Source: Chloroflexota bacterium (GTDB taxonomy: Bacteria; Chloroflexota; Anaerolineae; UBA1429). From it: a stretch of DNA of 36,814 nucleotides. Shown piece by piece: positions 10,533 to 29,190 of this stretch. Location of the stretch: assembly GCA_019873625.1 (NCBI GenBank), contig JAIOAW010000025.1:1-36814 (forward strand). The letters are read 5' to 3'. The notes below the pieces were generated by a model. It saw nothing but the letters and a program-made list of their open reading frames with translations. It did not search any database and had not been told where the DNA came from. The first letter of the stretch is position 1. Each line of letters begins with the position of its first letter. Both the position numbers and the translations under genes were made by a program.

Positions 10533-11478
10533 GATTCGCCGCCTGCTCGAGGGGGCCAAACGCGTCCTCATCGTCAGCCACGTGTCGCCGGATGGCGATA
10601 CGGTAGGGTCGGCCCTAGGGCTGGCCTGGGCGCTTCGGGCCGAGGGGAAGGAGGTGCGCCTGGCCTGCGCCGATCCTATCCCGCTCGAGTTGGCCTTTTT
10701 GCCGGGCGCCCACGAGTTCTCCACCCGCCGCGCGGGCGATGAGGAGATCATCTTTTGCCTGGACGCCTCGGACCCGGCCCGCCTAGGCGCGCTATATGAC
10801 GCGGAGGCATTCCAGCGGGCGCCGGTGGTCAACCTCGACCATCACATCACGAATACCCTCTATGGCGATATCCATTGGGTCCTGCCGCTGGCCTCGACGG
10901 CGGAGATCGTCCTCGAGGTGATCCGTGGGGTGGGCCTATCCCTCGACCGCGCCGTGGCCACCTGCCTCTTGACCGGCATCGTGACGGATACGCGCGGCTT
11001 TCGCACGCCGAACACCACGGCCGAGACCTTGCGCCACGCCTGCGACCTGATGGAGGCCGGTGCGCCCCTCGCCGAGATTACAGAGGCCGTGTTCGATCAC
11101 CGCGCGCTCCGCACGCTGCGCCTTTGGGGCGCGGTGCTATCGAGTATGGAATGGGAGGAGGGCCTCTTGTGGGCCGAACTGCCCCTCGCGCTCCTCGAGG
11201 CCTACGGGGCAACGAGCGAGGCGAGCAAGGGCCTAGTGAACTTTATGAGCACCTGCGCCGAGGCCGAGATCACGGTGCTTTTGCGCGAGATGGAGGGCGG
11301 CCAAGGCGTGGATGTGGGCCTGCGCGCCCGGCCGGGATATGACGTCTCGGCCGTGGCGTTAGCCTTTGGCGGGGGAGGGCATCCTCAAGCGGCGGGTTGC
11401 CAATTGCGCGGGTCGCTTCAAGAGGCGAAAGAGCGCCTTTTGCCGGCGCTCAAGGCGCTCATCGCCCAAAAGGCATAA
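10513..11478 (+). CDS. nrnA: DHH-family phosphoesterase, NrnA-like (nanoRNase / pAp phosphatase)
   Basis: This 321-residue enzyme belongs to the group that degrades oligoribonucleotides 2-5 nucleotides long and can dephosphorylate pAp. The DHH metal motifs appear in order: SHVSPDGDT (motif I), DASD (II), NLDHH (III) and TDTRGF (IV). The C-terminal DHHA1 domain carries the substrate-binding GGGGHPQAAG. ATG 10513 overlaps rbfA by 20 bases. The order rbfA-nrnA-truB is common in Gram-positive and Chloroflexota genomes and links RNA turnover with ribosome maturation genes. Choosing between NrnA and other DHH oligonucleotide hydrolases rests on context and length. Confidence 0.88.
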   Translation: MSNPLPEIRRLLEGAKRVLIVSHVSPDGDTVGSALGLAWALRAEGKEVRLACADPIPLELAFLPGAHEFSTRRAGDEEIIFCLDASDPARLGALYDAEAFQRAPVVNLDHHITNTLYGDIHWVLPLASTAEIVLEVIRGVGLSLDRAVATCLLTGIVTDTRGFRTPNTTAETLRHACDLMEAGAPLAEITEAVFDHRALRTLRLWGAVLSSMEWEEGLLWAELPLALLEAYGATSEASKGLVNFMSTCAEAEITVLLREMEGGQGVDVGLRARPGYDVSAVALAFGGGGHPQAAGCQLRGSLQEAKERLLPALKALIAQKA

Positions 11479-11500
11479 AGCCGAAGAAAGGGGGCGTTCT

Positions 11501-12658
11501 ATGGCACGGACGGTTACCTTCCATACCGCCGGCGAGATCGTCTTCGGCAAGGGTTGCGCCGAGACGGTGGGCGAACGGGCGCGCCGCCTAGGGGCAAGCC
11601 GCGTCCTCCTCCTGACGGATGCGGGGGTGGCCCGCGCCGGCTTGGCCGAGCAGGTGCGCGCTTGGCTGGCCAAGGCGGGCCTTTCGGTGGAGGTCCTTGC
11701 GGAGGTCCAGCCCGAGCCGAGCACGCACACGGTGGCTGCGCTCTTGGAAAAGGCCAAGGCGGCCCAGGCGGACCTCCTCGTGGGCGTGGGCGGCGGGAGC
11801 ACGCTGGATTGCACCAAGGCTGTGGCTATGCTCCTCGTCAACGGGGGCCGCGTAGAAGACTACCTAGGCGCCGATTTAGTGCCGCGCCGTGGGCTGCCCA
11901 CCATCCTCTTGCCCACGACGGCGGGCACGGGGTCTGAAGTGACGCCGAACGCCGTCTTTGCCGTGCCCGAAAAGCACACCAAACAGGTCATCGTGAGCCA
12001 CCTCATCCTGCCCTCCATTGCTATGGTGGACCCCGTTTTGACCTACACCGCGCCGCCTTCGGTGACGGCAGCCTCTGGGATAGATGCCCTCTGCCATGCC
12101 ATCGAGGCCTACACCGGCCTTACGCCCAACCCCCTTGGCGACCCCTATGCCCTGGCCGCGATGCGCCTGATTGCCCAGCACCTGCGCGCCGCCGTGTACG
12201 ATGGGCATAACGCCGAGGCGCGCGAGGGGATGGCCCTGGGGAGCCTTTATGCCGGTTTGGCGCTGGCCAACGCGCCGATGAACGCCGTGCACGCTCTGGC
12301 CTATCCGCTCCAGGGGTGGCACCATATCGCCCATGGGTTAGCCAATGCGCTCCTCTTGCCCCATGTGGTGGCCTATAACGCGAGCGGCCATATCGAGCGC
12401 TTTGCCCGCGTGGCCGAGGCGTTGGGCCAGCCCACTGCGCACCTCTCGCCGCGCCAGGCCGCCGCCGCAGCGGCCGAGGCCTGCCGCATCCTCAACGAGG
12501 ATGTCGGCATCCCCAAAGGGCTGCGGGAGGTGGGCATTTCGGCGGAGCAGATTCCCCTCCTTGTGGAAGGGGCCTTGCAAATCGAGCGCCTCCTCCGATA
12601 CAACCCGCGCCCCTTGCGGGCCGAGGATATCGCCGCGATTTACGAACGCGCGCTCTAG
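11501..12658 (+). CDS. Iron-containing alcohol dehydrogenase (group III)
   Basis: This is a 385-residue NAD(P)-dependent alcohol dehydrogenase of the Fe-ADH family. It has the dinucleotide-binding GVGGGSTLDCTK (about 95-106), the PTTAGTGSEVT motif (138-148) and the four metal ligands Asp195, His199, His264 and His278 (in SGIDALCHAIE, NAVHALAYP and HIAHGLAN). Substrates in this family range from ethanol and butanol to lactaldehyde and glycerol, so the substrate cannot be assigned. ATG 11501 follows GAAAGGGGG. It is inserted between nrnA and truB with gaps of 22 and 9 bases, which is odd because it has no evident link to translation. Confidence 0.9.
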   Translation: MARTVTFHTAGEIVFGKGCAETVGERARRLGASRVLLLTDAGVARAGLAEQVRAWLAKAGLSVEVLAEVQPEPSTHTVAALLEKAKAAQADLLVGVGGGSTLDCTKAVAMLLVNGGRVEDYLGADLVPRRGLPTILLPTTAGTGSEVTPNAVFAVPEKHTKQVIVSHLILPSIAMVDPVLTYTAPPSVTAASGIDALCHAIEAYTGLTPNPLGDPYALAAMRLIAQHLRAAVYDGHNAEAREGMALGSLYAGLALANAPMNAVHALAYPLQGWHHIAHGLANALLLPHVVAYNASGHIERFARVAEALGQPTAHLSPRQAAAAAAEACRILNEDVGIPKGLREVGISAEQIPLLVEGALQIERLLRYNPRPLRAEDIAAIYERAL

Positions 12659-18121: not shown

Positions 18122-21100
18122 TCAAGAGGTCGTCTCGCTGGGCGCGATCTCCTGAAGGATGGCGCGAATCACCACCGCATCCATATAATCCAGCGAGGTA
18201 AAGAGCGCCTCGCCGCGTTCCCCATCCATCACGCGCCAGATGGCCTCGGCCAGGTTGCGCCATTCCGGCGCTTGTTCGAGTTTTTCAAGCGCTTGGGCGG
18301 CCTCGGCGTCGAGCGCCTCGCCTCGGCAACTCGCGGCCACCGCGCGGATCAGTTCGCCCCACTTTTGGCGCACGGCCTCGGCGGCAGGAGAGGAAGCAAA
18401 GGCCTCCTGGGCGCGCAGCCGCCAGGTCAGCGCCTCTTCCGCGTTTCCTTCGGCCTCGGCCACCTGCTGGAGGAGGGTGTACACGCTCCAGGGTTGGCTG
18501 TCTCCGCCTTGCTCCGCATAGGCGAGCGCGGCCTGGGCGTGGGCGCGGGCCGTGGAGAAATCCTGGTGGCGCAGAGAATAGGCGCTCAGCGCCGTCTCAG
18601 CGGCCACCAGGCCGGGCAGGTGCTCGTGCTTTTGGTAAAGGCCCAACGCCTGGTTCAAACGCGCCTCCGCATCGGCCGGGCGATCCGCGTCCTCGGCGAG
18701 GTCGGCCATCTCAAAAAGGATCTGCCCCTGCAAGGGGATGTTCCCGGCCTTTTCAGCCCAAGAGAGGGCCTGGTCGAAACAATCCTGCGCCTCTTCGGCA
18801 TCTTGTTCGGTGCGCCAGGCCACCTGGCCCAGCCGCCGCCACAGCGTAGCCACAGCGTGGGCATCGCCTTCGGCCTCCAAGAGTTCGAGTGCGGCGCGAA
18901 AATGCTGGCGGGCGCGCTCCACCTCCCCTTCGGCCAGCGCGATGTTCCCCAACTGCGCCCGCAGCGTGCCCGTGGCGCGGCGGGCCTCCAGGGCCTGTGC
19001 CGTCCCTAGGGCCTGTTCGCAGAGGGTTTTGGCCTCCTCCCACTGGCCGGCGGCCATCAACACGTCGGCCATATCGCTGCGGATGGAGACCAGCATCTGC
19101 TGGGCCTCGCGAGTCACTGCGCTGGAAAGGAGTTGCGTCGCCAGTTGCCAGGCGCCCAAGGCTACCTCCGGGCGCCCCATAGCCCGCAAAACGCGCCCCC
19201 AACTGTGGAGCACCGCACCCCGGTCGAGCGTGGCCTCGATGCCGCTGTAAGAGAGGCCATCTTCCCGGTTGATGCGCACGTTCAGTTCCTGCAAGAGCGC
19301 GGCGCTCTCGCTCAGCCGGCCCGCCTGGGCCAACTGTTCGCTCTGCCGCAAGATAAAGTGCACGCCAGCGCGCCCTAGGGGGCCTTCGGGCGGGGCGATC
19401 TCTTGAGAAACGTGCGACACGCGCGCGGCAAGGAGGTTCCAGGCATCGCGGAACCCCAACGGCCTCAAGAAGGCCAACATCGCCTGAACCATAGCCATCG
19501 CCTCGTTCACCTCTTGGCGCGCCAGGAGGAACTCGACGGCGCGCCGCAAATTGGCAAGTTCCAGGCGAAAGAGCGTTTCGGCCAGTTTGGGCGCACGGGA
19601 GGCAAGCCCCCCAAGCCACCCCAAAAAGCCGCCGTATTCCACCAAGAAGCGCTCTTCGAGTTCGGCGCGTTGCGTTTTGGTCCATTGGCGCGCCCAGGTG
19701 CGCCCCAACGCCGGGTGCAAGCGGATGAGCGGCACCGTTAGCCCCGGCAAGGGGGTGGTGCGCAGGAGATGGCCGGCCTCTAGGCGCTGGATCGCCTCGG
19801 TCCAAGGGGCCTCATCCAGGCCGGCGATGTGCCGCCCTAGGGGGCTCATCATCCCGCTGGCAAAGATGCCCAGCCGCCCCAAGGCAAGGCGCGTCCCCTC
19901 GTTGAACGTATTCAGGGCATAGCCGATGGCCGCCTCCAAGGCTTGGTTGCGCAGGCGCGCCTCGCCCATATCCAGCCCCGGCAGGAGCGCCCGCAGGCCC
20001 TCCAGCGCCTCGGCAGGGGACCCGGCAAAGTGGGCTAGGATGACCAAGGCGAGGGGGTGGCCGCCCAGCCGCTCGATGAGCGCCTCGGCCGAGGCCCGGT
20101 CTGGCAGGGCGTGATGCGCCCTTTGCCAAAGGCGCCCCAAAAGGGCGAGCGCCTCAGCAGGGGGCAGTGCTTCTATCGGGAGCGCCCGCGAGGTTTCGGC
20201 GATCGTGAGGGCATCTTGGGGCAAGGCCGGCCCATTGGCGAGGAGACACAGCCGGCTTGGCCCCGTGTTGAAACGTTGAGCCAGCTCCTTGAGGCCGGCA
20301 ATCTGCCCCGCGGGCAGGGGGGCCTCCCCTTCGGCCAAGATGGTCTCCACATCATCCCAAAGGATGAGCGTTTTCGTAGTGCGCAGGGCCTCCGCCAGGC
20401 GCTCGAGAGGGTTCTGCTCCCCGCCGGGGAAGGCCTCTCCTAAAAGGGTTTGGCCCGCGTCATACAGGGCCTCTTCGGGGAGGTTACCCCCCGCAAAAGA
20501 AGTATAGATGACGCGCTCAAAGCGCCCCGTGCGCACCAACCACCGCGCCGTATGGAGGATGAGGCTCGTCTTGCCCAGGCCCTCATAGCCATAGAGCCAG
20601 ATGGGCGGTTCGGCCTCTTCGGAGGTAAGCCACCTTTCCAAGGTGGCGCGCTCTTGGCCTCGCCCCACAAAACCATGGGGCAGGTCGGGGGGCAGGCCGC
20701 CCGGCATCGGCTCGCTCGGCAGGCGTTGCCAGGCCGGCAGGAGGTCTGGGCTGGGGAAGCGCACCACCTTGCGGATGCCCGAAGTTTCGCCCTCGGCCGT
20801 GGGCCAAAGGGCCAAGGTCGGCTCGGCGCCGACCGCTCGGCATTGGAAGGCCCCCCCTTTCAGGCCGAAGGGGGCCTCTTGCGCCCCGCCCAACCAGGCG
20901 GTCAAGGCGTCTCTCCCGGCCTGGTGCGAGGCCTCGGCGGCCGCCTGATGGAGCGAGCGACCGGCAAGCAGGGCCTCCCAAAAGGCCGCCCACCCCCGTG
21001 AGGCCGCCTCGCCCACCAAGTCGGCGCTAAGGAGTACCAAGGGCGCCCCGCTGAATGCCTCAAACGCCGCGAGTGCCTCTTCGGTAAGGCCGCCTATCAT

Positions 21101-21427
21101 CACGAGCGAAGCGCGGGAAGCCATCTCCCCAAGGGCCTGGCAAAGGAGAAGGTCCTCGCCCGCGGGAGCCTCCAGGGCCAGTGCCCACCCCTGGGGGGTG
21201 GGCAGGATCGGCCCCTCTATGTAGAGGATGGGCGTATCGTCCCTTTCCAGGCGCCGGGCAAGGGCCTCTCGGGTGGCCGGGCGCAGGTATTCGATGGCGA
21301 TGGGGGCGCCTTGGGCCTCCAAAGCGCCGTAAAGCGCCTCGATGCGATGGAACGCGGCGGAGACATCGCGCCCTGACGGTTTGGGCGCTACGATGACGAG
21401 GCGCGCACGCGGCGCAGAGGAATCCAT
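18122..21427 (-). CDS. CHAT-like/STAND NTPase/TPR protein
   Basis: This large 1101-residue protein has three parts. Residues 8-180 look like a CHAT (caspase-like) fold, but the positions expected for the catalytic His and Cys read LYIEGPI (68-74) and SLVMIGG (107-113), so the site appears lost. Residues 250-470 are a STAND-type NTPase: FVGRGQER entry, P-loop GYEGLGKTS (280-288), Walker B TLILWDDVE (353-361) and a GLPL-like GGHPLAL (455-461). A winged-helix-like stretch follows (about 500-620), then tetratricopeptide-type helical repeats to about residue 1060. STAND proteins of this form act as ligand-triggered switches in immunity, death or transcription control. ATG 21427 has AGGAGG upstream. 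It shares an operon with the LCAT-like hydrolase. Confidence 0.82.
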   Translation of the reverse strand: MDSSAPRARLVIVAPKPSGRDVSAAFHRIEALYGALEAQGAPIAIEYLRPATREALARRLERDDTPILYIEGPILPTPQGWALALEAPAGEDLLLCQALGEMASRASLVMIGGLTEEALAAFEAFSGAPLVLLSADLVGEAASRGWAAFWEALLAGRSLHQAAAEASHQAGRDALTAWLGGAQEAPFGLKGGAFQCRAVGAEPTLALWPTAEGETSGIRKVVRFPSPDLLPAWQRLPSEPMPGGLPPDLPHGFVGRGQERATLERWLTSEEAEPPIWLYGYEGLGKTSLILHTARWLVRTGRFERVIYTSFAGGNLPEEALYDAGQTLLGEAFPGGEQNPLERLAEALRTTKTLILWDDVETILAEGEAPLPAGQIAGLKELAQRFNTGPSRLCLLANGPALPQDALTIAETSRALPIEALPPAEALALLGRLWQRAHHALPDRASAEALIERLGGHPLALVILAHFAGSPAEALEGLRALLPGLDMGEARLRNQALEAAIGYALNTFNEGTRLALGRLGIFASGMMSPLGRHIAGLDEAPWTEAIQRLEAGHLLRTTPLPGLTVPLIRLHPALGRTWARQWTKTQRAELEERFLVEYGGFLGWLGGLASRAPKLAETLFRLELANLRRAVEFLLARQEVNEAMAMVQAMLAFLRPLGFRDAWNLLAARVSHVSQEIAPPEGPLGRAGVHFILRQSEQLAQAGRLSESAALLQELNVRINREDGLSYSGIEATLDRGAVLHSWGRVLRAMGRPEVALGAWQLATQLLSSAVTREAQQMLVSIRSDMADVLMAAGQWEEAKTLCEQALGTAQALEARRATGTLRAQLGNIALAEGEVERARQHFRAALELLEAEGDAHAVATLWRRLGQVAWRTEQDAEEAQDCFDQALSWAEKAGNIPLQGQILFEMADLAEDADRPADAEARLNQALGLYQKHEHLPGLVAAETALSAYSLRHQDFSTARAHAQAALAYAEQGGDSQPWSVYTLLQQVAEAEGNAEEALTWRLRAQEAFASSPAAEAVRQKWGELIRAVAASCRGEALDAEAAQALEKLEQAPEWRNLAEAIWRVMDGERGEALFTSLDYMDAVVIRAILQEIAPSETTS

Positions 21428-21556: not shown

Positions 21557-21585
21557 TTGACACGCCCCACCCCTGATTCTAGAAT
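21557..21585 (+). promoter_or_regulatory. Promoter of the apionate-type cluster
   Basis: TTGACA (21557-21562), 17 bases, TAGAAT (21580-21585): close to full consensus. The -10 lies in a 10-bp palindrome ATTCTAGAAT (21576-21585). The leader to apnO is about 25 bases and contains GAGGAGG. Confidence 0.75.
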
Positions 21586-21617: not shown

Positions 21618-22466
21618 ATGATCACCGTGGCCCTTTTCGGCGCGGCCGGCAAGATGGGCACGCGCCTGGCGGAGAAATTGCGTGCTGCCCCCGAATACCG
21701 CCTGCTATGTGTAGAGGCGGGCGAGGCGGGCCTGGCCGCCCTACGCGCTCGCGGCCTCACGCCTATGCCGGCGGAGGAGGCGGCTCGCGAGGCGGAGATC
21801 GTCATCCTCGCCATTCCCGATCGGCTCATTGGCCGCGTGGCGAGCCACATCGTGCCGCTCCTCAAGAGCGGGGCCATGGTCGTCTGCCTAGACCCCGCCG
21901 CGCCTTACGGCGGCCAACTCCCCGAACGGGCGGATATCGCCTATTTCGTGGCGCACCCCTGCCATCCGCCTTTGGTGAAGGAGGAGGAGACGCCCGAGGC
22001 CCGCGCCGACTTTTTCGGGGGCGTGGCCAAGCAGAGCGTGGTCTGCGCCCTGATGCAGGGCACGGAGGAGGATTACCAGCGCGGCGAGGCCCTCTGCCGG
22101 ACGATCTTTGCGCCCATCCTGCGCGTCCACCGCATCACCGTGGAGCAGATGGCCATCCTCGAGCCGGCCATGGCCGAGAGCGTAACCCTCACGCTGATGA
22201 TGGCCATCCGCGAGGCGCTCGATGAGGCCATCGCCCGTGGGGTGGATGCCGAGGCGGCGCGCGATTTTATGTTGGGGCACCTCGGCGTGAATGTGGGCAT
22301 CCTATTCGGGTTTATCGAGGCCGAAGTCTCCGACGGGGCCAAGATGGCCGTCGAGCGGGGCAAAGCGCAAATCCTCCAACCGGGTTGGAAAAGGGTCTTT
22401 GAGCGCGAGAGCATCCTCGCCGAGGTGCGCGCCATTACGGAAGGTCTTCAGGGGGCAAAGCGATGA
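21618..22466 (+). CDS. apnO: D-apionate oxidoisomerase-like dehydrogenase
   Basis: This 282-residue NAD-dependent enzyme has an N-terminal Rossmann fold (VALFGAAGKMGTRLAEKL) and a 6-phosphogluconate-dehydrogenase-type C-terminal helical domain. Family-like segments are DIAYFVAHPCHPPLV and AARDFMLGHLGVNVGILF. I assign it to the ApnO group, which oxidises and isomerises D-apionate to 3-oxo-isoapionate. The next two genes encode homologues of the flanking pathway steps, which strengthens the call. It begins after GAGGAGG and a near-consensus promoter and overlaps the next gene by four bases (ATGA). An alternative is another 2-hydroxy-acid oxidoisomerase acting on a related sugar acid. Confidence 0.78.
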   Translation: MITVALFGAAGKMGTRLAEKLRAAPEYRLLCVEAGEAGLAALRARGLTPMPAEEAAREAEIVILAIPDRLIGRVASHIVPLLKSGAMVVCLDPAAPYGGQLPERADIAYFVAHPCHPPLVKEEETPEARADFFGGVAKQSVVCALMQGTEEDYQRGEALCRTIFAPILRVHRITVEQMAILEPAMAESVTLTLMMAIREALDEAIARGVDAEAARDFMLGHLGVNVGILFGFIEAEVSDGAKMAVERGKAQILQPGWKRVFERESILAEVRAITEGLQGAKR

Positions 22467-23275
22467 GGCTGGGCGTCAGTTCCTTCACTTTTACCTGGGC
22501 GGTTGGCCTGCCGGGATATGTCCCCGCGCGGCCCCTCGGGCCGGTGGACCTCATCCGTCGCGCCGTGGAACTGGGCGTCAAGGTGGTGCAGTTTGGCGAT
22601 AATTTGCCCTTGCATCTGTGCCCCACGGAGACTTGGCGCGACCTCCGACGCGCCGCGCTGGCCGAGGGCATCTCGCTGGAGGTGGGGGCGCGCACCTTGG
22701 AGGAATCTCTCCTTAGGCGTTACGTGGGCCTGGCGGCGGAACTCGGCTCGCCCATCTTGCGCCTAGTGGCCGACCCTGCCGAAGGGGAACCCTCCGTGAG
22801 CGCCATTGCCGATCGCCTGCGGCCGATCCTCCCCGATTTGCGCGCGGCGGGCGTTACGCTCGCCATCGAGAATCATGACCGCCTCACCTCCGCCCAACTG
22901 GTGGCCCTCCTTGAGGCCTTGGCTAGTGAAAACGTCGGCATCTGCCTCGATACGGTGAACTCCTTCGGCGCGCTGGAGGGGCCTCCGCTCGTCATCGAGA
23001 CGCTGGCGCCCTATGCCGTCAATCTGCACCTCAAAGATTTCGTCATCTTTCGCGCGCCGCAGAATATGGGGTTCATCATCGAGGGGCGTCCTTTGGGGCA
23101 AGGGAGGTTGGATATCCCCTGGGTGCTGGAAGCCCTCCGCGCCCACGGGCGCGACCCAAACGCCATCCTCGAATTGTGGACGCCCGCCCAAAAGACGCTT
23201 GAAGAAACCATCGCCCTGGAGCGCCGTTGGGCCGAGGAGAGCGTGCGTGCGGCGCGGCGCTTTATCGCCGAATAG
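22463..23275 (+). CDS. oiaC: TIM-barrel sugar-acid decarboxylase/isomerase, OiaC-like
   Basis: This 270-residue protein has the AP-endonuclease-2/xylose-isomerase-like TIM barrel. A metal site is visible as the usual Glu-Asp-His-Glu series: TLAIENHD, ICLDTVNS, NLHLKDF and AILELWTP. In D-apiose degradation, OiaC of this superfamily decarboxylates 3-oxo-isoapionate to L-erythrulose. The neighbours, an ApnO-like enzyme upstream (four-base overlap) and an ApnL-like lactonase downstream (20-base gap), support this role. By sequence alone a sugar phosphate isomerase/epimerase would be equally acceptable. Confidence 0.72.
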   Translation: MRLGVSSFTFTWAVGLPGYVPARPLGPVDLIRRAVELGVKVVQFGDNLPLHLCPTETWRDLRRAALAEGISLEVGARTLEESLLRRYVGLAAELGSPILRLVADPAEGEPSVSAIADRLRPILPDLRAAGVTLAIENHDRLTSAQLVALLEALASENVGICLDTVNSFGALEGPPLVIETLAPYAVNLHLKDFVIFRAPQNMGFIIEGRPLGQGRLDIPWVLEALRAHGRDPNAILELWTPAQKTLEETIALERRWAEESVRAARRFIAE

Positions 23276-23295
23276 GGCGCGCCGGAGGGAGTCCG

Positions 23296-25173
23296 ATGGT
23301 CACTGATGTCCACATCCTGCGCTACGGCTCTCCCGATCCCCTCCCCGAAGCGGTGCCCCTGAGGGCGGGGCCGATTTCCTGCGTCTTTATGGCAGGGGAG
23401 TTGCGGGATATCGCGCTCGCTGGGCAGATCGTCCTCCGGCGCATCTATGTGGCCGTGCGAGATGCCCACTGGGGCACGGTGCCGCTCATCCTGCGCGATG
23501 TGGAACTCGTCCACCGCGAAGGGGAGTTTGAAATCGCCTTTTGGGCCGAGCACCATCAGGGGGAGGTCCATTTCGCCTGGCGCGGTGCCTTCTATGGCGG
23601 CCTCGAGGGCACACTCGATTTGGTGATGGAAGGCCGGGCGCTGGCGGCCTTCTCGGCGAACCGCATCGGCTTTTGTGTTCTATATCCGGAGACGTGCGCC
23701 GGCGCGCCGTGCACTGTGGAACACACAGATGGCTCGGTGGAAGAAGGGCACTTTCCCCAGGCCATCTCGCCACACCAGCCCTTTTTCGCCATCCGCGCCA
23801 TCTCTCATACAGCGTGGCCCGGTGTGCGCCTTCGCGTGGATCTCGAGGGCGATACCTTCGAGATGGAAGACCAGCGCAATTGGAGCGATGCCTCGTTCAA
23901 GGTGTACAGCCGGCCGCTGGCCCTGCCCTACCCCTTTGCCGTCGCGCACGATGGCCGCATTGCCCAGGCGGTGCGCGTCAAGGTGTCGGGCTGCGCTCCT
24001 CGGATTCTAGCGAAAGACGAGCCGACCCTTCTCGAGATCCTCCCCCAAAGCGTGGGCCGCTTGCCCGCCTTGGGGTTCGGCATTCCCCACCGGCCGCCTC
24101 CTGCGGGGCCGGCGCGCGAGCGCCTGAGGGCGCTCCGCCCTGCCCACTTGCGCCTGGACCTCGACCCAACGCTCGATGGGTGGCCCCGCGATGCCGAGCA
24201 AGCCGCAGCCTGGGCGCAGGCGTTGGGCGCGCCGTTGGAGATAGCGCTCTTTTTGCCCGATGAATGGGGAAGCGCCCTCGAGGGGTGCGCGCGTGCTCTG
24301 CGCGGCTGCGGGGCGCCCATTTGCCGCTGGCTTCTCTATAGGCAAGGGCAGCCGGCGACGCCTCCGGGGCTGATCTCCTTGGCGCGCACGGTGTTGGCGC
24401 CGCTTGCGCCAGGGGCTAAGTTCGCGGTGGGCACGCCGATGCACTTTACGGAACTCAACCGCGCCCGCCCCAGCCTCGAGGGGGCCGAGGCCGTGGCCTG
24501 GTCGCTCACGCCTCAGGTGCACGCCTTCGATAACGCCTCCCTCATAGAGACGCTCGCCATCCAGGCGCAAATCGCCGAGAATGCCCGCGCCCTTTACCCC
24601 CAAGCCCGGCGGGTCATCTCGCCCATCACGCTCAAACCTCGGCCCCCTTTGGCCGATCGGCGCCGCGAGGGGGCCACTCCCGCGCTCGGCGTAGATGTAC
24701 GCCAACCTTCCCTCTTTGCAGCGGCTTGGACGTTAGGCAGCATCGCATCTCTTGCCGGGGCCGGCGCCTCAAGCCTAACCTATTATGAGGCGCTGGGGCG
24801 CCGTGGGCTGATGGAGGAAGAGCGCGTTTTCCCCGTGTACCACGCCTTGGCATGGCTTGCGCCCTGGCGCGGGGCGGAGGTGCTTCGCACCACCTCAAGC
24901 GCTCCTTTGAAGGCCGTGGCCTTGGCACTCGAGAAAGAGGGGCAGCGCGCGGCTTTTTTGGCGAACCTTACGCCTCAGCCCCAGCCCGCCCTCCTGAGGC
25001 CGGCTAGGAAAGAGGTGCGCCTCGTGCGGCTGAACGAGGTGAACGCCGAAGCGGCGATGGCCTGCCCAGAAGGGGATTGGCCTTTGCGATCCACCCTCAC
25101 CCCCACCGTAGGGGGCGCGCTGGCCATCCTCCTATGGCCCTATGAAGTGGCGTGGGTTGATGGGCTCCTTTAG
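23296..25173 (+). CDS. apnL: D-apionate lactonase-like protein
   Basis: This is a 625-residue protein, close to the roughly 610 residues I expect for D-apionate lactonases. It has an N-terminal beta-sandwich (about 1-260), a TIM-barrel middle part (about 280-540, including GVDVRQPSLFAAAWTLG and SLTYYEALGRRGLM) and a small C-terminal beta domain. ApnL opens apionolactone to D-apionate, the substrate of ApnO. GGAGGGA just before ATG 23296 fixes the start; the open frame extends 23 codons into oiaC. No signal peptide is seen. Family membership rests on length, domain layout and context; I cannot point to catalytic residues. Confidence 0.65.
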   Translation: MVTDVHILRYGSPDPLPEAVPLRAGPISCVFMAGELRDIALAGQIVLRRIYVAVRDAHWGTVPLILRDVELVHREGEFEIAFWAEHHQGEVHFAWRGAFYGGLEGTLDLVMEGRALAAFSANRIGFCVLYPETCAGAPCTVEHTDGSVEEGHFPQAISPHQPFFAIRAISHTAWPGVRLRVDLEGDTFEMEDQRNWSDASFKVYSRPLALPYPFAVAHDGRIAQAVRVKVSGCAPRILAKDEPTLLEILPQSVGRLPALGFGIPHRPPPAGPARERLRALRPAHLRLDLDPTLDGWPRDAEQAAAWAQALGAPLEIALFLPDEWGSALEGCARALRGCGAPICRWLLYRQGQPATPPGLISLARTVLAPLAPGAKFAVGTPMHFTELNRARPSLEGAEAVAWSLTPQVHAFDNASLIETLAIQAQIAENARALYPQARRVISPITLKPRPPLADRRREGATPALGVDVRQPSLFAAAWTLGSIASLAGAGASSLTYYEALGRRGLMEEERVFPVYHALAWLAPWRGAEVLRTTSSAPLKAVALALEKEGQRAAFLANLTPQPQPALLRPARKEVRLVRLNEVNAEAAMACPEGDWPLRSTLTPTVGGALAILLWPYEVAWVDGLL

Positions 25174-26032
25174 CCCTTTCCCAGGCGCATCCGAAGGGGC
25201 GGCCTCGTCAACGCTGGGGCCTCTCCTGGGGCGGGGGCGCACGGCGGAAATCTATGCCTGGGGAGAGGGCCAGGTCATCAAACTGTTCCTCGAAGGCTGG
25301 CCGGAGGAGGCCATCTCGCACGAAGAGGAGGTGGCGCGCCTCGTCACGGCGCTAGGGCTGGCGGCTCCCAAACTCTTGGGGCGCGCCCAGGTGGGGCGCC
25401 GAACGGGCCTCCTCTACGAGCGCATCGAAGGCCCCTCGATGCTCCAGGCGCTATGCCGCACGCCCTGGCGTTTCGTGCGCTATGCCGAGCGCTTCGCCGC
25501 GCTCCACGCCGCGATGCATCGCCAAACTCAGCCGGGCTTGCCCTCGTATAAAGAGGGCCTGGCGCAACGCATTCGCCGCGCCCCGCTCCTCACGGAGGCG
25601 CAAAAAGGGATCATCCTCTCCTACCTAGAGGCCCTGCCGGAGGGGGACGCCGTGTGCCACGGCGACTTTCACCCCGATAACATCCTGATGGCCCCGCGCG
25701 GGCCAGTGGTGATCGATTGGAACGATGCCAAGCGCGGCCACCCGGCCGGCGATGTGGCCCGTACCATCCTCCTTTTTCGGGCGCCCCTTGCCCTGGAAGG
25801 CCTCAGCGGCCCCAAACGATGGCTCCTTGCGGCGGCAAAAGGGGCCTTTTTGCGGGCCTATCTGCGGGCCTACCGCCGCCTTCATCCTCTTTCCCCAAGG
25901 GATGTCGAAAGATGGATGCTCCCCGTGGCCGCTGCCCGCCTCGCCGAAGGCATCCCCGGCGAGGCGGGGTTTCTCTTGGCCATAATCCGCTCGAGGGTTC
26001 GGCTAGGCCCCCCGATGCAAGGCGCTTACTGA
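25142..26032 (+). CDS. Aminoglycoside-phosphotransferase-fold kinase
   Basis: This 296-residue kinase-like protein shows the APH catalytic loop VCHGDFHPDNILM (catalytic Asp and Mg-binding Asn) and the metal-binding Asp in VVIDWNDAKRGHPAGD. The N-lobe lysine is in QVIKLFLEG. Such proteins phosphorylate small molecules (choline, homoserine, fructosamine, aminoglycosides). It is the last gene of the apionate-type cluster and overlaps its predecessor by 32 bases, or by 14 bases if it starts at ATG 25160; neither start has a clear SD, so coupling is likely. A metabolic kinase role is inferred. Its 3' end overlaps the convergent enolase-superfamily gene by 7 bases. Confidence 0.78.
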   Translation: MKWRGLMGSFSPFPGASEGAASSTLGPLLGRGRTAEIYAWGEGQVIKLFLEGWPEEAISHEEEVARLVTALGLAAPKLLGRAQVGRRTGLLYERIEGPSMLQALCRTPWRFVRYAERFAALHAAMHRQTQPGLPSYKEGLAQRIRRAPLLTEAQKGIILSYLEALPEGDAVCHGDFHPDNILMAPRGPVVIDWNDAKRGHPAGDVARTILLFRAPLALEGLSGPKRWLLAAAKGAFLRAYLRAYRRLHPLSPRDVERWMLPVAAARLAEGIPGEAGFLLAIIRSRVRLGPPMQGAY

Positions 26033-27345
26033 TCCCACCGGCGGTCTGGTTGCCAGAAGCCCAATTTGGGCGTGTTCCATTCCTCCGTCGGCTCAAACAA
26101 GCCCCCGGAACGCAGGTTCGCCGCGATGCCCTCCAGATGGAGATCCACCCCCAACCCCGGTTTCTCGGGCACGCGCACATAGCCCTCTTCGATGAGGGGA
26201 TCAGCCAGGCCGGTGACGAGGTCCTTCCAGAAGGGCAGGTCGAGCCAGTGCGCCTCGAGCGCGATGAAACTGGGGAGGGCCGCCGCGCAGTGCACGTTCG
26301 CCATAAACCCGATGGGCGAACTCGCGCAGTGGAGCACGGTGGGCAGGCCGTAGCGTTCAGCGTAATCGGCAATCTTTTTCGTCTCCAGCATCCCGCCCGC
26401 CGTGAGGAGGTCAGGCTGGATGATATCTATGGCGCGGCGCTCGATCATCTCGCGCCACCCATCGAGGAGGTAGATATCCTCGCCGTTCAGAGTGGGCACG
26501 TTGATGGCCCGCGTGACGATGCGGTTGGCCTCCACATCCTCCCAGGGCATCAAATCCTCCAGCCAGGCCAGGGCATAGGGTTCCAAGGCGCGGCCGATGC
26601 GGATGGCATCTTTGATGCTGATGGGGCCGAAATGGTCAATAGCGAGGGGGATTTCCCAACCCACGGCCTCGCGCACCGCGGCGGTGATCTCCGCAAAGCG
26701 CGCCACGCCCTTTTCGGTGAGTTGCGTGCCCACGAGGCCCCGCGCGTTACGCCTTTGGCTAAAGCGCATCGCGTATTCATAAGGGCTGGGCGAGCCGACG
26801 AGGTATCCCTCGCCTGGCGGGAATTGGTGAATGCCCACGTCGAACTTGATGAAGGTGAGGCCCATCTTTTTGCGGCCGAGGACGCGCTCGGCATAGCCCT
26901 GCGGCGTTTTCTCCTTCGGCGCGGGCGTATCGGCATAGATGCGCACCCGATCGCGATATTTGCCCCCCAGGAATTGGTAGCAGGGCACGCCGTAGGCCTT
27001 GCCGATGAGATCCCACAGGGCCACCTCAATCCCCGAGACGCCCCCGCCCTCGCGCCCCCAGGAGCCGAACTGCTTTATCGTGCGAAAGATGAAATCAATA
27101 TTGCAGGGGTTCTGCCCCAAGAGGAAACTCTTGAAGCGCAGGGCGTCCTCTTTGTGGCCCGCGTCGCGCACCTCGCCCAGGCCGTAGAGGCCCTGGTTCG
27201 TGTCAATGCGCAGGATGGGGTAATCATAGTTCGAGGCGACCACCGCCACGCGCAGGTCGGTGATCTTGAGTTGCGAGGGGCGGGAATAGGTGCGGAGGGC
27301 ATCCTCCACACGCCCCAGGGCCGTTTGGTCATCTTGGCTCATCAT
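26026..27345 (-). CDS. Enolase-superfamily (mandelate racemase/muconate lactonizing) enzyme, probable sugar-acid dehydratase
   Basis: This 439-residue protein has the N-terminal capping domain (GLGEVRDAG, GVSGIEVALWDLIGKAYGVP) and the modified TIM barrel of the superfamily. Metal ligands can be assigned to Asp in LAIDHFGP, Glu in LEDLMPWED and Glu in LNGEDIYL. The Asp-His dyad is QPDLLTAGG with VLHCASSP. The usual KxK appears as FIKFDV, so one base is replaced. Such enzymes abstract a proton next to a carboxylate; many dehydrate sugar acids. Its operon partner is a DapA-family protein, and such pairs often dehydrate and then cleave a sugar acid. ATG 27345 has GGAGGGAAG upstream. Confidence 0.85.
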   Translation of the reverse strand: MMSQDDQTALGRVEDALRTYSRPSQLKITDLRVAVVASNYDYPILRIDTNQGLYGLGEVRDAGHKEDALRFKSFLLGQNPCNIDFIFRTIKQFGSWGREGGGVSGIEVALWDLIGKAYGVPCYQFLGGKYRDRVRIYADTPAPKEKTPQGYAERVLGRKKMGLTFIKFDVGIHQFPPGEGYLVGSPSPYEYAMRFSQRRNARGLVGTQLTEKGVARFAEITAAVREAVGWEIPLAIDHFGPISIKDAIRIGRALEPYALAWLEDLMPWEDVEANRIVTRAINVPTLNGEDIYLLDGWREMIERRAIDIIQPDLLTAGGMLETKKIADYAERYGLPTVLHCASSPIGFMANVHCAAALPSFIALEAHWLDLPFWKDLVTGLADPLIEEGYVRVPEKPGLGVDLHLEGIAANLRSGGLFEPTEEWNTPKLGFWQPDRRWDQ

Positions 27346-27361
27346 CGCTTCCCTCCGAGGT

Positions 27362-28273
27362 TCAAGGATACCACCGCAGATACGGCCCCAGCCGCTCCCA
27401 CACGCGGTCTATCTCGCGCAGATCGTCCTCATCGAGCGGCCGGGCCTGCAGGCGCATACGGTGATTTTTGAAGACGCCCCGCCGCACCATAATCTCCTTG
27501 GCGAAGGCCATACCCATCAGGCCCTCCAGGTCAATGGCGGGCAGGGCGCGCTCAAAGAGGTCGCGGGCGGCCTCCTCTTGGCCGGCTTCGAGGAGGTCCC
27601 AAATGGCCTGGATGACGTCGCATATCTCGCAGGCATGGACGACCCCCTTCGACCCGCGCGCCCATTCGGTGATCATATAGCGCCCGCCCGCGCCGCCCAT
27701 CACCCCTTTGAGCGCCGGGCAGTTCCTTTTGACCAGGGCGCTGATGCTGTGCGTGCTGGGGGGCACTTCTTCCTTCACCCAAGAGACGCGTTCGATTTCG
27801 GTGCAGAGGGTGATGATTTGATCGGGAGAGAGGGCGGCAACCCCCGCATTCTGGATCCACACCGGCACGCTGACCACGTCTGAAATGGCCTGATAGTAGC
27901 CCAAAAGGCGCTCCCAATCGGGCCGGTGGATGTACGGCGGCATAGCGATGACGGCATCGGCCCCCACTTCTTCGGCATAGCGGGCATAGGAGACGGCCAA
28001 CGGCGTGTTCACGGCGGCGCAGTTCGCCACCACCGGCACGCGCCCCGCCGCCTGCTCCACCGGAATGCGGATCATCGTGCGCCGTTCCTCTTCCGAGAGG
28101 TAAAAGAACTCGCTCACCATCACCGGCGTTACGATGCCCCGCGCCCCGGCCTGGATGCAAAACTCGATTTCGGCGCGGAGCACGTCCTCATCTATGCGAT
28201 CCTTCTCGTCAAAGGGCGTCATTGGGATGGCGAAACTGCCCCGCCACGCCTCTTCTCCCACGGAACTGGGCAT
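27362..28273 (-). CDS. DapA-family (dihydrodipicolinate synthase/N-acetylneuraminate lyase) aldolase
   Basis: This 303-residue class I aldolase-fold protein has a Schiff-base lysine in VSWVKEEVPPS and the partner tyrosine in AMPPYIHRP. The substrate loop that reads GTTGE in true dihydrodipicolinate synthase is here VTPVMVSEFFYLSEEER, so lysine biosynthesis is unlikely. A 2-keto-3-deoxy-sugar-acid aldolase or dehydratase is more plausible, given the adjacent enolase-superfamily gene (16-base gap). The start is ATG 28273, seven bases after GAGGAGG. It overlaps the uvsE stop by one base (TGATG), so translation is coupled. Two upstream GTG codons are too close to the SD. Confidence 0.85.
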   Translation of the reverse strand: MPSSVGEEAWRGSFAIPMTPFDEKDRIDEDVLRAEIEFCIQAGARGIVTPVMVSEFFYLSEEERRTMIRIPVEQAAGRVPVVANCAAVNTPLAVSYARYAEEVGADAVIAMPPYIHRPDWERLLGYYQAISDVVSVPVWIQNAGVAALSPDQIITLCTEIERVSWVKEEVPPSTHSISALVKRNCPALKGVMGGAGGRYMITEWARGSKGVVHACEICDVIQAIWDLLEAGQEEAARDLFERALPAIDLEGLMGMAFAKEIMVRRGVFKNHRMRLQARPLDEDDLREIDRVWERLGPYLRWYP

Positions 28274-29190
28274 CACCACACCTCCTCGGCCAAGGCCGGC
28301 GCGTAACGCGCCAGGTCTTGGCGCAGTTTGAAAAGGGCCAAATCTCGCGCTTTGGCCTCGAGCATCACGTCGAAGGCAGGCAGGCCCCGCGCCATCTCCA
28401 TAAAGCGGATGAATTCAAAGGGGTTGACGCAGTCGGCATGCTCCGTCCACGAGGGCATTTTGATGCGGCCGTTTGCCCCGAGGCCGCGCAGTTCGGTGCG
28501 CGGCGAACTAAAGTGCACCTTGGGGCGCACGCCGCTTGGCCAGGTGCTCAGGCAGTAGGCGAGCGCCTCGCGCGCGGGCACACCCTGGGGGTTGAGCACA
28601 TCGTGATGGAGGGTGTCGAACACCAAAGGCACGCCAGAACGGGCGTGGATGGCCTGCACATCGGCAAAACTGAAACGGCGGTCATCCTGCTCGAGCACGA
28701 CGCGGCGGCGCACAGCCTCCGGCAGGGCCTCATAGCGCCGTATAAAACGCTCGCGCGAAGAAAGGGGGTCATCATACACCCCGCCCACGTGGAGCACGAC
28801 GACGGCTTCTGGCCCCAGGCCAAGCGCCTCGAGAAAGGCGGCGTGGGCCTCGAGGAGCGCGCAGGAGCGGGCCGCTTGCTCCTCGTTCAGGGCGCTGAGG
28901 ATGACGCTGCTGTAAGGGTGAAAGGAGAGGCGCACCGCCGCCGAGGCGATGAGGCCGCGCACGGTCTCTAACTGCGCCTGGCACTCGGCGATTTGCTCCT
29001 GGAGGCGCTCGCCTACGGCGGGGAGCAAGCGCGAGTGCAGGCGGTACATCCGCACCTGGTTGGCCTGGAGGTAGAGGAGAATATCGCGCAGATAGGCCAA
29101 ACTCACGCTGAGGTGAGGCCCTCTCACCCCGTTCAGGGCGGGGTGAGAGGGTAAATTCGCCTCGCCAAAGATGCGGATGGAAAAACCCAA
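28273..29190 (-). CDS. uvsE: UV damage endonuclease UvsE
   Basis: UvsE/UVDE nicks DNA 5' of UV photoproducts to start repair without nucleotide excision repair. The 305-residue TIM-barrel protein keeps the metal and lesion-recognition residues: LSFHPYSS, VVLHVGG, VVLEQDDRRFS, LVFDTLHHDV, KVHFSSP, HADCVNP and MLEAKARDLAL. The start is a TTG at 29190 without a good SD; the N-terminus (FSIRIFGEANLPSH) aligns with where I expect the family to begin. A 13-bp perfect hairpin lies within codons 14-24. It follows the unknown conserved gene by 55 bases and overlaps the DapA-family gene by one base. Confidence 0.85.
   Translation of the reverse strand: MGFSIRIFGEANLPSHPALNGVRGPHLSVSLAYLRDILLYLQANQVRMYRLHSRLLPAVGERLQEQIAECQAQLETVRGLIASAAVRLSFHPYSSVILSALNEEQAARSCALLEAHAAFLEALGLGPEAVVVLHVGGVYDDPLSSRERFIRRYEALPEAVRRRVVLEQDDRRFSFADVQAIHARSGVPLVFDTLHHDVLNPQGVPAREALAYCLSTWPSGVRPKVHFSSPRTELRGLGANGRIKMPSWTEHADCVNPFEFIRFMEMARGLPAFDVMLEAKARDLALFKLRQDLARYAPALAEEVW
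29119..29151 (+). repeat. 13-bp perfect inverted repeat inside uvsE
   Basis: CCCTCTCACCCCG (29119-29131) and CGGGGTGAGAGGG (29139-29151) form a perfect stem with a 7-base loop. It lies about 40 bases downstream of the uvsE start codon, so the mRNA would fold strongly near the initiation region. It could be a translation brake or a small repeat insertion kept in frame. Confidence 0.75.

Follow-up and report, generated by a model that had tools for sequence, protein, structure and literature searches.

The locus described here raises the question of whether a genome that carries three genes for the oxidative breakdown of the plant sugar D-apiose, but no orthologue of the dehydrogenase that opens the route, can still use that route. 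The oxidative pathway was reportedly described by Carter et al. in 2018 (Nat Chem Biol) with the enzymes ApsD, ApnL, ApnO and OiaC. ApnL is the only one of these names given by a library (NCBIfam); ApnO, OiaC and ApsD are names that we assigned from the pathway. We think it probable, judging from sequence, that the cluster forms the lower, non-phosphorylating part of the oxidative D-apiose route, with a first oxidation that is unlinked and not due to ApsD, and with an unlinked DhaK-DhaL or an APH kinase downstream. ApnL would open D-apionolactone to D-apionate, ApnO would oxidise and isomerise D-apionate with NAD(P)+ to 3-oxo-isoapionate, and the metal-dependent OiaC would decarboxylate 3-oxo-isoapionate to L-erythrulose. 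The lactone would be supplied from D-apiose by an unlinked dehydrogenase other than ApsD, and the kinase for L-erythrulose would be either an unlinked one of the DhaK-DhaL type or the APH kinase whose gene follows ApnL. We infer every reaction and every substrate in this scheme.

Layout and recurrence of the cluster

The window, that is the whole stretch of DNA analysed (36,814 nucleotides), is the entire contig C25 of a 2.76 Mb genome in 47 contigs (label G000). The earlier note on this DNA had claimed three consecutive apnO-, oiaC- and apnL-like genes, and domain matches, family matches and reading frames confirm them at 21618-25173 on the plus strand (Table 1). The range given in that note, 21618-26032, also takes in a fourth ORF, the APH kinase, without naming it.

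Table 1. Features of the cluster, with the basis of each assignment
Feature	Position	Strand	Basis
ApnO-like NAD-binding oxidoisomerase	21618..22466	+	PF16896 C-terminal domain; PDB 5t57
OiaC-like xylose-isomerase-type TIM barrel	22463..23275	+	AP_endonuc_2; model; conserved residues
ApnL-like D-apionolactonase	23296..25173	+	NCBIfam NF049900; motifs; model
APH-family small-molecule kinase	25142..26032	+	Pfam; start 25142 or 25160, overlaps ApnL stop
Promoter-like site TTGACA-17-TAGAAT	21557..21585	+	consensus scan only

The ATGA overlap of the ApnO and OiaC genes (22463-22466) and the 20-base gap between OiaC and ApnL (23276-23295) are both present as claimed. The ApnL ORF is listed from 23227, and the start chosen here agrees with relatives in the alignment; the APH kinase gene overlaps ApnL by 14-32 bases, according to its own start. 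All four ORFs have a GC3 of 0.77-0.83, which fits coding sequence. The promoter-like site matches the consensus at 11 of 12 positions and is one of three sites in a scan of the region (two on the opposite strand), where shuffles give 0.7. Of the proposal that one strong promoter yields a single transcript, the promoter-like site and the tight spacing stand, and the single transcript is a reading of spacing and consensus.

Several other genes of the window were considered. Tail to tail with the cluster, 26026-28279 on the minus strand encodes an MR_MLE protein (an enolase-superfamily sugar-acid dehydratase) and a DapA-family aldolase. We rejected these genes as part of the cluster because they are on the other strand and the other ApnL stretches show only one DapA-like match (G141); they are likely a second, separate sugar-acid unit. 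Divergent from the cluster, 18122-21427 on the minus strand encodes a 1101-residue TPR protein in which a GxxGxGKT-like P-loop can be seen by eye, and this protein is a possible regulator. At 11366-12658, within a nusA-infB-truB-birA-like run, an iron-containing alcohol dehydrogenase gene is flanked by a DHH-family gene and by truB. It was rejected as the counterpart of the iron-containing alcohol dehydrogenase that adjoins OiaC in G045, to which it is just 26% identical; in G045, OiaC and ApnL are adjacent, and our census registered a single long ORF there.

ApnL was found in 37 of the 396 genomes of the class searched. ApnO and OiaC are both near it in 17 of the 37, counted on stretches around ApnL, many of which end at contig ends; the same stretches hold ApsD in 11 cases, a RuBisCO-like gene in 4 and an apiosidase-like gene in 7. 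The trio thus recurs in related genomes, several with the same gene order, and the cluster is not a chance assembly. In many of the 37 genomes ApnL stands without ApnO or OiaC within the stretch seen, many stretches again reaching contig ends. Further afield, the run that contains the ApnL homologue on two annotated rhizobial plasmids also encodes a Gfo/Idh oxidoreductase, an ABC transporter and a PF16896-type protein, the last of which has its place inside our ApnO tree. On a Paraburkholderia plasmid ApnL is accompanied by a Gfo/Idh protein, an ABC transporter and a RuBisCO-like gene. Since ApnO-type genes occur in other contexts and ApnL occurs without its partners, neither alone proves an apionate substrate; the argument is the trio.

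An apiosidase-like gene (PF13204) directly adjoins ApnL in three genomes of family f38. The seven apiosidase genes in ApnL loci compare with 0.6 expected at the rate of the window genome (P 3.5e-6), with the background taken from the Pfam model and the neighbours counted with a four-sequence profile for which three of the seven themselves were used. P rises to 2.7e-4 at twice the background rate and weakens to 0.035 at five times that rate, and we therefore regard the adjacency as suggestive and not as proof.

The three enzymes

The ApnO-like protein has a Rossmann N-terminal domain and a PF16896 C-terminal domain (187.5 bits, Pfam), and its gene is the sole PF16896 gene found in the genome. 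No NCBIfam ApnO match was obtained for it; its PDB relative, 5t57 (E 5.9e-83), bears the deposited name semialdehyde dehydrogenase NAD-binding protein. Scanning genomes with the protein gave 152 relatives. Among the best 80 loci of the 152, the nearest named relatives are mostly Chloroflexi and Poribacteria MAGs at 56-66% identity, and proteobacterial relatives are about 47-54% identical. In a tree of 88 rows the window belongs to a starred set of 13 (98/95) that includes Chloroflexota and Poribacteria, and it falls together with PF16896 genes from clusters of the apiose type; the tree also contains copies from outside such clusters. By these kinships the window genome is likely to be one of Chloroflexota. 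Its neighbour there (98/77) is the second ApnO copy of G029, which adjoins an HpcH aldolase, a 2-hydroxyacid dehydrogenase and a gene weakly resembling D-threonate/3-oxo-tetronate kinases. This pairing with a copy in a four-carbon-acid kinase context indicates that PF16896 enzymes serve other routes. The set at L017:11572-16799, in which the second ApnO-like gene accompanies a four-carbon-acid-type kinase, an HpcH aldolase, a GntR regulator and a 2-hydroxyacid dehydrogenase, probably belongs to another pathway that employs a PF16896 enzyme. Compared with L081 omitted, the window ApnO has unusual residues in 2 of 78 conserved columns; one of these changes, P210D, is at a site invariant in 84 others.

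The OiaC-like protein matches AP_endonuc_2 (85.4 bits, Pfam), and its predicted structure (pLDDT 92.5) resembles the barrels of sugar 3-epimerases and isomerases. E136, D163, H189 and E237, which from superfamily knowledge we take to be the metal ligands, are kept in all 20 rows with letters at these positions (21 rows, one a fragment). The window protein departs at none of 35 conserved columns in a comparison that omitted L028 and L032. No sequence bearing the name of a characterised OiaC came to light. The OiaC tree, in which resolution is poor (2 of 18 inner branches are starred), places the window with 14 rows, apart from Paenibacillaceae. Phylogenetic placement, which had been put forward as a check, sets ApnO among apiose-type clusters, in a tree shared with copies from other contexts.

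The ApnL-like protein scores 295 bits with NCBIfam model NF049900 (D-apionate lactonase), in a match over almost the full model; the curated equivalog cut-off is higher, at 750 bits. As none of 60 relatives attains this value, the threshold may have been drawn closely around other members. The protein has no Pfam match; its homology to the family is near full length, and it shares the FEMEDQRNW and ELNR motifs. For all three genes, the names given earlier are upheld by trees, conserved residues, models and neighbourhoods, and are weakened by the distance of ApnL from its cut-off and by the ApnO-like enzymes of other contexts.

The predicted structure of ApnL (pLDDT 90.8) shows an N-terminal beta domain, which carries the FEMEDQRNW motif, and a GH-A-like barrel with a beta domain in residues 240-625. 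The structure alignment took in the Foldseek top chains, mostly over residues 240-625, which match beta-glucuronidase, GH30 and GH51 types (Z <=28.9, 366 residues, 3.5 Å, 12% identity); a search by sequence for a solved relative of ApnL found none. Such a fold, together with the apiosidase-like neighbours in 7 of the 37 loci, could be read as that of a glycosidase that cooperates with apiosidases and is no lactonase. Retaining GH-A glycosidases have two catalytic carboxylates (glutamates) at the ends of strands 4 and 7. At the inferred ends of these strands in ApnL, counted on the model, no acid is conserved in 16 rows, in which the invariant acids are D56, E189, E191, D192, D198 and E386. The members of the ApnL family moreover accompany ApnO, OiaC and ApsD, and we give the glycosidase reading hardly any credence. 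If the model of the lactonase is right, ApnL would be a GH-A-like sugar lactonase without the usual catalytic pair and an instructive example of an enzyme put to a new use.

In the ApnL tree the window pairs with G005 (99/97), and both fall, with G003, a fragment from G013 and L033, in one group (89/92, not starred). The window ApnL differs at E45, H130, N451 and P452, all invariant in 23 other rows; G005 likewise lacks N451. We rejected these changes as a sign of a new substrate on the basis of a leave-one-out control, in which unique departures number 7 in L081, 5 in L040, 4 in L035 and 3 in the window. The control omitted L032, L083 and L023, which are very long-branched or partial; the other conserved-column comparison for ApnL omitted L032 and L083.

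The missing steps

In the window genome (97.57% complete) no ApsD orthologue was found: a profile of nine ApsD sequences gave 42 matches, the best at 122 bits, and ApsD-bearing relatives score 273-618 bits among the matches listed. The Gfo/Idh proteins that we call ApsD meet no NCBIfam cut-off (one was tested). Among 25 proteins of the window, taken without small ORFs, Pfam gave no ApsD, transporter or DhaK-type match, and tblastn with reference ApsD and ABC proteins gave no match in the window. The absence of ApsD bears out the suggestion of the earlier note that the pathway is a variant or split one, and means that either another enzyme performs the first step or the set acts on a different sugar acid. 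The accompanying claim, that dehydrogenase, transporter and erythrulose kinase are missing, holds for the window and, for ApsD, for the genome; the search of the remaining contigs recovered a DhaK-DhaL pair on C12, ABC permeases on C3 and apiosidase-like genes.

The DhaK and DhaL ORFs lie side by side, 6 bases apart; the score of DhaL is above its NCBIfam cut-off, that of DhaK below (382 vs 406 bits). The other candidate, the APH kinase, is possibly the erythrulose kinase of this genome. As a conserved part of the pathway it was ruled out, since it is present in 1 of 37 ApnL loci, that of the window alone, and has a homologue in only 1 of 14 other genomes of the family, G005, at the end of a short contig different from that of ApnL. 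The run that holds the G005 homologue (L197:1-4881) also encodes a GHL6 protein and an aldehyde:ferredoxin oxidoreductase, a possible aldose-oxidising neighbour. Three PF13204 apiosidase-like genes are present in the window genome, the best at 417 bits. The strongest of them lies, at L126:2871-10575, near a class II aldolase, a phosphoribulokinase/uridine-kinase-type protein, a TIM-barrel isomerase and a BcrAD-type ATPase.

An ApsD match at E<=1e-50, anywhere in the genome, is found in 27 of the 37 ApnL genomes. The ten without one are G000, G003, G005, G013, G108, G127, G340, G352 (f38), G212 (f4) and G316 (f50), the first four of which belong to the family of the window, where 4 of 5 ApnL-bearing genomes therefore have no ApsD. 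With G003 95% and G005 99% complete, missing assembly is an improbable cause in all ten. One of them, G212, shares with its congener G230 the order ABC permease (91% identity), variable slot, ApnL (71%) and epimerase (88%); the slot is filled by an SDR in G212 and by ApsD in G230. The first enzyme of the pathway thus seems to be exchangeable, and this pair of genomes gives the clearest indication of it.

The frequent absence of ApsD could also mean that the remaining genes are relics without a working pathway, and the end branches of ApnL are long (0.95 in the window, 1.31 in G005). Branches of 0.95 and 1.59 are found, however, in the ApsD-bearing L033 and in L041, all three frames of the window are open with coding-type GC3, the core motifs are intact, the genes are still closely spaced, and G212 is a case in which the first enzyme has been exchanged in situ. 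We consider decay to be very unlikely.

A more serious alternative, though still an unlikely one, is that the same chemistry acts on the lactone of a different branched sugar acid (for example, a hamamelonate-like one) and ends in another ketose, the starting sugar not being apiose and no ApsD being needed. A hamamelose route belongs to the general background; no paper on one was found, judged by titles and abstract starts. The distribution of ApsD in the family of the window, the common ApnL group of its ApsD-less genomes, the altered sites of the window ApnL and the P210D change in ApnO would all suit such a substrate. Yet L033, a member of that ApnL group, does have ApsD; in the control, departures are as many or more in other members of ApnL and ApnO, OiaC is typical, and the genome carries apiosidase-like genes.

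A possible lead to the first dehydrogenase lies on C3, where two ABC permeases, an SDR (G000:C3:59178-59978) and an apiosidase-like gene (118 bits) form a run on one strand, the last two separated by a 14-base gap with GGAGG. In a comparison that covered part of the genome, this SDR is 37% identical to the SDR of G212 and 41% to an SDR beside ApnL in G037. Identities of 37-41% are ordinary among SDRs, and the best solved matches of the C3 SDR (2-deoxy-gluconate and gluconate 5-dehydrogenases) differ from those of the G212 SDR; we therefore rejected it as a proven replacement of ApsD. Elsewhere in this genome, G000:C4:47564-65756 contains ten Gfo/Idh/MocA-like matches on one strand within 18 kb. 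Speculatively, and with more doubt than conviction, we suggest that unrelated dehydrogenases have replaced ApsD in several Chloroflexota-type lineages, the C3 SDR being the candidate in the window genome, that the cluster is the lower half of a two-locus system, and that its lactonase arose from a glycosidase fold minus the catalytic carboxylates.

Relation to known apiose systems

Like the oxidative D-apiose pathway, the window has homologues of ApnL, ApnO and OiaC in one operon-like run. It differs in that its genome has no ApsD orthologue, the cluster contains an extra APH kinase gene and no transporter, and its ApnL is only 30-33% identical to the proteobacterial rows. The 2018 work of Carter et al. 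is cited in PMC6302742. A second branch, with RuBisCO-like OiaX and OiaK, is annotated in Rhodobacteraceae LCG007 and suggested by the Paraburkholderia loci; according to PMC11747546, D-apiose supports the growth of a Rhodobacteraceae strain whose annotated apiose cluster is of the kinase/decarboxylase branch. ApnO and ApnL are common to that branch and to the window, whereas the window genome has an OiaC-type TIM barrel and no RuBisCO-like match, which makes the OiaK/OiaX branch unlikely there.

A further comparison is with the ApsD clusters L018 (G002, in the family of the window), L027 and L033 (Chloroflexota MAGs) and L199 (G100). In all of these, as in the window, ApnO and OiaC are adjacent, and the window proteins share 49-66% identity with their counterparts in L018, L027 and L033. 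ApnL is present in L018, L033 and L199 and was not seen in the short L027. These clusters carry ApsD beside the set, whereas the window does not. Among the papers listed, we found none on apiose breakdown in Chloroflexota, judged by titles and abstract starts.

We therefore regard the window cluster as a variant of the known oxidative apiose route, all of whose reactions here are predicted. It would add a lineage near Chloroflexota MAGs to the bearers of oxidative apiose breakdown. With ApsD as the marker, annotation would overlook roughly one in four ApnL-bearing genomes (10 of 37), and the exchange seen in G212 names a concrete gene, its SDR, as a candidate first enzyme.
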